Positions 39,494 through 42,276 of a stretch of 64,000 nucleotides of DNA are shown here, piece after piece (within the stretch, counting starts at the first letter, position 1; each line of letters opens with the position of its first letter). The position numbers and the translations under genes were made by a program. The notes under the pieces are model-generated. The model was not told where the DNA came from and searched no databases. It was given only the letters and a program-made list of their open reading frames with translations. The stretch comes from Candidatus Binatia bacterium (GTDB lineage: Bacteria; Desulfobacterota; Binatia; UBA9968; JAJDTQ01): positions 1,875,042 through 1,939,041 of the forward strand of contig OX638375.1 in assembly GCA_951813575.1 (NCBI GenBank), written 5' to 3'.

Positions 39494-40357
39494 TTAGCTG
39501 AACATGACCTTAGCCATCTCCGACCGGAACCGGTCGGCCAACTCGCTGCGTCCCAGGACCTCGAAGATCTGCACCATGGCCTTGCGGGCGCCGTCATCCT
39601 CGAAGGCGCGGTCCTGTTTCAGCACCGCCAGGAACTCCTCGAGGGCGGCCTCGTAGCGCTCTTCCGCCGCCAGCGCCTGCGCCAACCGGAACCGCACGTC
39701 GATGCGGTCCGGGGCCGACTCGAGCTCCCGCCGCAACGACTCCACGTCGGCGCCGTCGCCCTCGCTCAGCTTGTGACGGGCGATCAGCCGGTCGGCTTCG
39801 TTTCGTTCCGGCCCGCCGGGAGGGACCCTCTCCAGAAAGGACAGAGCGCGCTCCGCTTCCGTATCCAGCAGCCCCCGCCCCAGTCCCAGGAGCGCCCCCG
39901 GGTGATGCGGCGATTCCTCCACGACCTGCCCGTAGATCTCCAGCGCCTTCCCGGTGTCGCCCGCGGACCACAACCGGTCCGCCTCGACCACCAACTCGTC
40001 CTCGCGTGAGGGCACGACCTGGGCGAGCGCCTCGCGCACGGCGGGCTCGGGAAGCGCGCCGGTGAATTCCGTGGCCAGGGCGCCGTCCTTGAACACCTTG
40101 ACCGCCGGGATCCCCTGGATGCCGAAGCCGGCCGCCAGCTCCTGGTTCTCGTCCACGTTGACCTTGGCCAGCAGCAGCTTGCCGCCGTACTCCTCCGTCA
40201 CCCGTTCCAGCACCGGCCCCAGGACCCGGCACGGTCCGCACCACGGCGCCCAGAAATCCACCACCACCGGCGTTTCCCTGGAGCGCTCCAGCACCCGCGC
40301 CTCGAACTCGGCCTGGTCGACGTCGAAGACCAGCGATTCCGTTTCTCCCGCGCTCAC
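39494..40357 (-). CDS. Thioredoxin-TPR protein (CnoX/YbbN-like)
   Basis: A 287-residue protein with an N-terminal thioredoxin domain and a C-terminal tetratricopeptide region, the layout of the chaperedoxin CnoX (YbbN). The redox motif is WAPWCGPC with Cys40 and Cys43 both present, unlike E. coli CnoX (SxxC), so it can act as a thioredoxin. The TPR part (about 120-287) includes helices such as [28 protein letters not shown], and the last TPR domain matches the TPR_20-like tail of the family. The start is GTG at 40357, with AGAGGA upstream. It lies five bases after the end of the OsmC-like selenoprotein gene and probably shares its transcript. Confidence 0.88.
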
Positions 40358-40362
40358 CGCGT

Positions 40363-40854
40363 CTATTCCTCTTTCCGGCTCGTGTCGAAGTCGGCCCCGT
40401 TGAGCGTCACCCGTGTCTCCACCGGCGTCGGCTTCATGACCGTCTGCATGATGTAGCAACCCTGCTCCGAGTTGCGGATCACCGCGGCCACGCGCTCCGG
40501 CGGCTCGTCGGACTCCACCTCGAGCTTCGTTTCGACGCCGACGCCCTCGGCCTGCACCGTTCCCCGCAACACCGAGCCCTCGTTCCTGAAGCGCGCGGTC
40601 ACGTGCACACGCGCCTTGTCGATCTTCACCTTCATCATTTCCCCGTACCGGGAAAGCTGGGTGAGCAGTCAGAATCCGATGGAAAGCGCAAAATACGCCA
40701 TGGGCGGAGGCGCCGTGTTGTCGCCGCCGATGCGCCCCCCCTCGTCGCACATCACCGTGAAGCCCCGGGCCTCGCCACGCTTCTGCTGCCGCTCCAGCAT
40801 CTCGGCGTCGGCCTCCATGACGACTTCGCGTTTGACGATCATGTCGTCCGCCAT
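40363..40854 (-). CDS. OsmC-like selenoprotein (in-frame TGA, probable selenocysteine)
   Basis: A 163-codon OsmC/Ohr-family gene whose codon 62 is TGA (40671-40669). Both sides are in the same frame and both belong to one OsmC domain: [19 protein letters not shown] before it and [19 protein letters not shown] after it. In OsmC relatives the position after ...GF is the reactive Cys (GFC-x-x-TQL). The second conserved Cys is kept as Cys133 ([10 protein letters not shown]). A two-tier hairpin follows the TGA. OsmC-like proteins are among the known bacterial selenoprotein families; they reduce organic or lipid peroxides using a thiol or selenol. GGAGG seven bases before ATG 40854 supports the start. 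If TGA is a true stop, this is a pseudogene, but the preserved downstream half and hairpin argue against that. Confidence 0.75.
40626..40664 (-). promoter_or_regulatory. Candidate bacterial SECIS hairpin
   Basis: On the mRNA, counting from the base after UGA, bases 14-19 (UUUCCC) pair with 26-31 (GGGAAA) around the six-base loop GGUACG. Bases 5-9 (UCACC) pair with 39-43 (GGUGA) as an outer stem. The loop starts 19 bases after the UGA and has G in its first two positions. Bacterial SECIS elements are stem-loops directly 3' of UGA with a small apical loop containing a G early in the loop, read by SelB. The geometry fits; it also lies in coding sequence, as in other bacterial selenoprotein genes. 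Confidence 0.65.
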
Positions 40855-40884
40855 ATATCAACCTCCAGGATGTTTGTGACGCGA

Positions 40885-40928: not shown

Positions 40929-41426
40929 ATGGCCAAACGACACCCCTCTCTGATACCGCTGTCCCACGACCACCACCACGGGCTGGCGCTGGCATTGCGC
41001 TGCCGCAAGCACGCCCTCGGGCAGCTCAATCCGGGCGACCCCGCCGCCCTCGAAGCCTGCGCGGCGGAAGTGTCGCGCTTCTTCAACAAGAACCTGACGC
41101 CGCACTTCGAGGCCGAAGAGACGGTCCTCTTTCCGCTGATGGCGGCCTACGAGGAATGCCGGGAGCTGGTGGCGCAACTCGAACGCGAGCACCGGGAATT
41201 TCACAGGCTGGCGGCCCGGCTGGGGGAGCCCGGAGGACTGCGGAAGTCGCTGTTCGACTTCGGAGACCTCCTGGAGCAGCACATCCGGAGCGAGGAGCGC
41301 CGGCTCTTCGCCGCCTTCGAGATGTTCGTGCCGGCGCCCGACGCCGAACGCGCCGGCCAGGAAATCAAACGACTACTGGAGCAAGGTCAGGCCGCCAGGG
41401 CCGGCGCCGGAACCGTCACGCCATGA
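40929..41426 (+). CDS. Hemerythrin-domain protein
   Basis: A 165-residue four-helix protein with a hemerythrin-type di-iron site. Candidate ligands appear in order: His in PLSHDHHHGL (helix A), the H-x-x-x-E of PHFEAEETVLF (helix B), EHREFHRL (helix C) and EQHIRSEERRLF (helix D). Members sense or store oxygen, NO or iron. It is divergent from the OsmC-like gene and overlaps the following HMA-like gene by four bases (ATGA), so the two proteins are probably made together. Confidence 0.82.
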   Translation: MAKRHPSLIPLSHDHHHGLALALRCRKHALGQLNPGDPAALEACAAEVSRFFNKNLTPHFEAEETVLFPLMAAYEECRELVAQLEREHREFHRLAARLGEPGGLRKSLFDFGDLLEQHIRSEERRLFAAFEMFVPAPDAERAGQEIKRLLEQGQAARAGAGTVTP

Positions 41427-41632
41427 ACACCAAGACCGCCATCATCTCCATCGAAGACCTGACCGACACCGCCGTACCGGAGCTGACCGAAGCATTCAAC
41501 AGTTCTCCCGGCGTCACCGAGGTGGATTTCTCGGTGGAGCGAAAGGTCGCCGTCATCGAGTTCGACCCCGAGGTCACCAGCGTCGACGCGCTGATGCGGG
41601 TGGTGCTGGGCAAGGGGTACAAGGTCCTCTAA
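41423..41632 (+). CDS. Small HMA-fold-like protein without the metal-binding CxxC
   Basis: A 69-residue protein with the beta-alpha-beta-beta-alpha-beta pattern of heavy-metal-associated domains: TAIISIEDLTDTAVPELTEAFNSSPGVTEVDFSVERKVAVIEFDPEVTSVDALMRVVLGKGYKV. The middle strand reads like an HMA domain (GVTEVDFSVERKVAVIEFDP), but the loop that carries CxxC in copper chaperones has no Cys at all. It therefore probably does not bind copper in the usual way. It is translationally coupled to the hemerythrin gene. The fold call is by pattern and moderate. Confidence 0.6.
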   Translation: MNTKTAIISIEDLTDTAVPELTEAFNSSPGVTEVDFSVERKVAVIEFDPEVTSVDALMRVVLGKGYKVL

Positions 41633-41658
41633 GGGACGTACGATCCGACAAGCGACAC

Positions 41659-42276
41659 GTGACGGACTCTACCGCGGCAGGGGACGACTCCCGCACCCTC
41701 CAACGCCTCTACAACTGGACGCTGCGCAGCGCCGGGACGCGACATGCGGTCTGGGCGCTGGCCGGGGTGTGCTTTCTGCAGAGTATCGTCCTGCCGGTGC
41801 CGCCGGATCTGCTTCTCATCCCGATGGTGCTGGCCCGGCGGGCCAAGGCGCTGCTGTTCGCGAGCATCTCCACCCTGTCCTCCACGGCGGGAGGCCTGGC
41901 GGGATACGCCATCGGGTACTTTCTCTACGAAGCGGTGGGCGAGCCTTTGCTCGGCCTGTGGGGATACGAAGGGAAGATCGAGGTATTCGAGGCTTACCGG
42001 CGGGAGTGGGGTGCCTGGATCGTGGTTGCCGGCGCCCTGACCCCGCTTCCCTACAAGCTCGTGGCCGTCGCGTACGGCGCCGCCCGACTCGACGTCGGCC
42101 TCTTCATTCTGGCGTCCCTCCTCTCACGCGGCTTCCGGTTCTACGTCGAAGCCGCGCTGCTGTGGTATTTCGGACCTCCGATCCGCGCGCTCATCGAACG
42201 CCACCTGAGCGCGGCCACCGTGGCCGGACTGGTGCTTGTCGCCGGCGTCTTCCTGCTGCTCCGCTTGATCGCATAG
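41659..42276 (+). CDS. YqaA-family membrane protein (VTT/DedA-like)
   Basis: A 205-residue inner-membrane protein of the YqaA branch of the SNARE-associated/VTT (DedA) superfamily. Hydrophobic helices occur at about 30-50, 57-90, 110-140, 143-165 and 185-205. The family segment SIVLPVPPDLLLIPMVLA (about 42-59) and the re-entrant motif GALTPLPYKLVAVAYGAARL (about 124-143) are clear. DedA relatives move lipid carriers such as undecaprenyl phosphate; the YqaA substrate is unknown. The start is GTG at 41659. It follows the HMA-like gene by 26 bp. Confidence 0.82.
   Translation: MTDSTAAGDDSRTLQRLYNWTLRSAGTRHAVWALAGVCFLQSIVLPVPPDLLLIPMVLARRAKALLFASISTLSSTAGGLAGYAIGYFLYEAVGEPLLGLWGYEGKIEVFEAYRREWGAWIVVAGALTPLPYKLVAVAYGAARLDVGLFILASLLSRGFRFYVEAALLWYFGPPIRALIERHLSAATVAGLVLVAGVFLLLRLIA

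Follow-up and report, generated by a model that had tools for sequence, protein, structure and literature searches.

The window, a stretch of DNA of 64,000 nucleotides, carries on its minus strand an OsmC-family gene that is very probably a real selenoprotein gene (probability about 0.96), with the in-frame TGA of codon 62 (40669-40671) read as selenocysteine. The gene extends over positions 40363 to 40854 and comprises 163 codons and a stop codon (40365-40363). Its 163-residue translation contains one in-frame TGA and a putative redox pair, U62/Cys133. A sequence-only reading had proposed a probable selenoprotein at exactly these coordinates, without naming the strand. The translation agrees with its description: the TGA is codon 62 of one uninterrupted frame, preceded by ALSIGF and followed by LLTQLSRYG, Cys133 is in place, 101 codons follow the TGA and the good ribosome-binding site is a GGAGG (40862-40866, minus strand) located 7 nt ahead of the ATG. 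The proposal is now supported by the pairing of TGA with Cys, the selenocysteine (Sec) machinery, the SECIS hairpin and the selection on the 3' part of the gene. The complete Sec machinery, the covariation of the SECIS stem and the selection past the TGA are, like the frame, the family and the TGA/Cys pairing, established at the level of the DNA, and from them we infer the decoding of UGA62 inside the cell.

The read-through protein matches the Pfam OsmC domain across the TGA (residues 44-147, 57.2 bits, cut-off 27.5) and the NCBIfam family NF041052, 'OsmC-related (seleno)protein' or OsmC_like_Se (185.7 bits, cut-off 95). The GC3 values are similar on either side of the TGA (0.87 before, 0.91 after). 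That the 101 codons past the TGA stay open (P = 0.045 by base shuffle) would by itself be weak evidence, and it is the homology that decides. Gene finders that treat every TGA as a stop retain the 3' part of the gene only as an ORF of 91 aa (40363-40638), which makes this gene a further example of those lost by such programs. The divergent neighbours on the plus strand (40929-42276) resemble, by eye, HHE hemerythrin-type, small HMA-type metal-binding and DedA-like membrane proteins, and similar genes adjoin the OsmC gene at the orthologous locus L054.

A scan of public genomes gave five orthologues (94-97% identity), whose MAGs bear the label Deltaproteobacteria or Candidatus Binatia, together with one relative at 62% identity in a Candidatus Tectomicrobia MAG. 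All six loci have the TGA at the same codon. A class-wide search of 148 genomes gave more than 50 matches with one in-frame TGA, and some of the scan MAGs are probably genomes of this search, because their proteins are identical. After further loci were fetched, the assembled set comprised some 61 distinct Sec proteins plus 19 with Cys. The sequence-only reading placed U62 at the reactive Cys of the family, and the alignment bears this out: the only invariant columns among 48 aligned sequences are 62, which is Sec, or Cys in the Cys homologues, and 133, which is Cys. The UxxT motif of the window protein is U-L-L-T.

It is highly improbable that the gene is a pseudogene or a sequence error, in which the TGA would be a nonsense mutation or an assembly error within a Cys-type OsmC gene. 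A single base separates TGA from the Cys codons TGC and TGT, and two relatives carry an extra TAG. On the other hand, many separate assemblies have the TGA at this very codon, in relatives with as little as 62% identity and also in paralogues below 35%. Downstream of the TGA, the comparison of the window with the five orthologues yields dN of 0.018-0.032 and dS of 0.19-0.33; on either side of the TGA, dN is much smaller than dS, and selection continues past the codon. A decayed 3' half in sister genomes had been named as an observation that would tell against the claim; in these genomes the TGA is retained and the 3' half is intact and under selection, which refutes the nonsense mutation and excludes a sequencing error. 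The two relatives with one TAG besides the TGA, L073 (G514:C189) and L096 (G506:C90), are perhaps decaying copies or assembly errors.

A conserved and covarying SECIS-like hairpin, for which the sequence-only reading had suggested a search, is placed 3' of the UGA. Its core of six pairs (40639-40655, minus strand) encloses the loop GGUAC (40649-40645), which begins 19 nt after the UGA. The loop starts at this same distance in almost every Sec gene, with GGUAC, AGUUG, AGUGU, GGUUC, UGUAC and other sequences. Standard pairs occupy 94% of the cells of the six-pair core (54 distinct rows), whereas 1000 trials with redealt 3' letters give a mean of 72% and a maximum of 78%. With a seventh, outer pair included, 85% are standard, and the other registers in these genes reach no more than 64%; this outer pair (positions 13/31 after the UGA) is unsupported and was dropped from the hairpin. 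Compensatory variants of the stem include UUUCCC/GGGGAA, UGACGC/GCGUCA, UUGCCC/GGGCAC and UUGCGC/GCGCAC. It is the proportion of standard pairs that singles out the hairpin register, which the count of double-change pairs fails to do (4 versus up to 6 elsewhere). The hairpin in the window has an unremarkable folding energy (z -0.69). Kinship inflates the pairing counts; the many differing stems at one fixed distance would nevertheless be hard to explain otherwise.

The constraints on bacterial SECIS elements given in PMC13188914 are a small apical loop, a G in the first two loop positions and a distance of 16-37 nt from the UGA. The window element, with its loop GGUAC(G) and covarying stem, agrees with them. 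Synonymous changes after the TGA affect 1 of 18 codons, compared with 49 of 144 (p = 0.013; p = 0.06 for a narrower stretch), a lull that is only suggestive. In the proposed mechanism, the hairpin just after UGA62 would recruit SelB and Sec-tRNA-Sec during translation; UGA62 would therefore become selenocysteine and a 163-aa protein with the OsmC fold would be made.

The host genome, a single contig of 4.21 Mb, contains the four components that were to be looked for, selA, selB, selC and selD. The tRNA-Sec (selC) scores 73.1 bits, above the Rfam cut-off, and has a tca anticodon, and selA, selB and selD are clustered at 2675632-2679699 (locus L061, C1:2674800-2681000). The SelD frame likewise contains a TGA, close to the N-terminal end and within the motif GUAAK; SelD is a selenoprotein that helps to make selenoproteins, of a known kind. 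Across the order, SelA matches above the cut-off are found in 33 of 35 genomes (a few of them weak) and tRNA-Sec above the cut-off in 25 of 35, and the missing matches are consistent with incomplete assemblies. Among the genomes whose OsmC gene bears the TGA, one has no SelA match (G519) and two have only weak ones (G198, G507), most likely as a result of fragmented assemblies.

A genome-wide reassignment of TGA to a sense codon, as in code 4 or 25, has the in-frame TGA of this gene as its sole point in favour and is extremely unlikely, given the full Sec machinery and the homologues with Cys, rather than Trp or Gly, at the TGA position; TGA is moreover the commonest stop in the window, where it ends 23 of 40 long ORFs (a rough choice), so the code as a whole is unaltered and a general reassignment is ruled out.

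The family to which this selenoprotein would belong is established, as had been claimed. OsmC-like selenoproteins are known since the 2005 Sargasso Sea survey (PMC1088965), are represented by NF041052 and are listed with a UxxT motif in later reviews, PMC13188914 being among the literature on SECIS and UxxT. They share with the window gene the OsmC domain, the Sec at the reactive position, the UxxT motif and a bacterial SECIS, and the window gene does not differ from them in kind. The present analysis adds a well-supported member to a family for which no biochemistry was found in the literature consulted. The further additions are small, namely the paralogous lineages within one order and the thioredoxin-TPR neighbour, of which the same literature gave no description. 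Literature searches combining selenoproteins with Binatota found no paper, and those combining selenoproteins with sponge symbionts found no title or abstract on the selenoproteins of such bacteria.

The AlphaFold model, with Cys in place of Sec, has a confident OsmC fold (mean pLDDT 93.3), and its best matches among solved structures are OsmC/Ohr proteins (Z about 11). The closest solved relative by sequence is a Jannaschia sp. OsmC-like protein (PDB 3cje, E 8e-11), which has the APPPLA motif in common with the window protein and is a Cys form, with Cys at both redox positions. According to PMC5962072, the Ohr of Xylella fastidiosa holds its peroxidatic Cys together with Arg19 and Glu51, a second Cys resolves and lipoylated proteins act as reductants. 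The window protein shares with the Ohr/OsmC peroxidases the fold and the peroxidatic and resolving residues (U62 and C133, both invariant), spaced by 71 positions rather than the 64 of XfOhr (Cys61/Cys125). In contrast to Ohr, it has Sec for the reactive Cys and lacks the catalytic Glu, and the Arg is not conserved: judged by alignment, all 61 Sec proteins have Leu or Met where Ohr carries this Glu, ten positions ahead of the reactive residue, and they share no conserved Arg column. The protein thus departs from the Ohr-type peroxidases in one defining trait. Because a selenol is acidic without help, it may nevertheless act in an Ohr-like manner.

The selenoprotein gene also differs from Ohr in its neighbour. 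The next gene downstream (39494-40357, minus strand; the start codon is an assumption and would lie 5 nt past the OsmC stop) encodes a thioredoxin domain with TPR repeats, in a CnoX/YbbN-like layout. In 23 other genomes, which represent three families of the order, a close relative of this gene likewise follows the Sec-OsmC gene in the same orientation, mostly at a distance of no more than 0.6 kb. One Sec-OsmC lineage has the thioredoxin-TPR gene behind it, and some Sec-OsmC loci have no thioredoxin gene in the surrounding stretch. This recurrence favours a thioredoxin-type recycling and provides a concrete candidate partner for the function of the Sec protein. Gene order suggests, at about even odds, that Sec62 attacks a substrate and is resolved by Cys133 with formation of a selenenylsulphide, which the thioredoxin-TPR protein then reduces again; gene order is no proof of the partnership. 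The putative substrate may be an organic hydroperoxide, a disulphide or another electrophile.

Somewhat less probable is a selenoprotein with no peroxidase activity, which could for example reduce disulphides or electrophiles or serve as a redox switch. This would suit the absent catalytic Glu and the unconserved Arg, and YhfA-type proteins, whose activity is unknown, also belong to the Ohr/OsmC family (PMC5962072); the conserved Sec/Cys pair rather suits a turnover with a resolving step, and nothing direct speaks against such a protein. It appears unlikely that the selenoprotein is an organic hydroperoxidase of the classical Ohr type, with lipoylated proteins instead of thioredoxin as its reductants. 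The common fold, the two-residue redox pair and the reduction of the Xylella enzyme by lipoylated proteins (PMC5962072) agree with this reading, whereas the Leu or Met at the Glu position, the lack of a conserved Arg column and the thioredoxin-TPR nature of the conserved neighbour do not.

In one mostly uncultured order, the Sec-OsmC family is widespread, present in multiple copies and linked to the thioredoxin-TPR gene. The host genome contains a second NF041052 gene (C1:632158-632580; L022:1495-1929), which is about 29% identical, likewise has a TGA in frame and is followed up by a SECIS-like hairpin of its own with the loop AGUUG. A tree of 81 rows, built on few columns and with rough support, shows several paralogous Sec-OsmC lineages, and the two genes of the host genome are placed in different ones. 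Within a Sec lineage, a clade of six Cys members (L116-L120, L127) stands on a long branch, which suggests that a Sec-to-Cys switch with faster change probably occurred; most genomes of the order in which this clade appears keep the Sec machinery. As a tentative extension of thioredoxin-type recycling, the Sec-OsmC and the chaperedoxin-like thioredoxin-TPR protein might form a dedicated redox pair in the order, in which the acidic selenol would replace the Arg and Glu of Ohr and the paralogous lineages would divide the work. Some genomes of the order have four or more Sec-OsmC copies, and at L092 (G511:C205) and L091 (G500:C581) a pair of adjacent Sec-OsmC genes on the same strand comes from different lineages.
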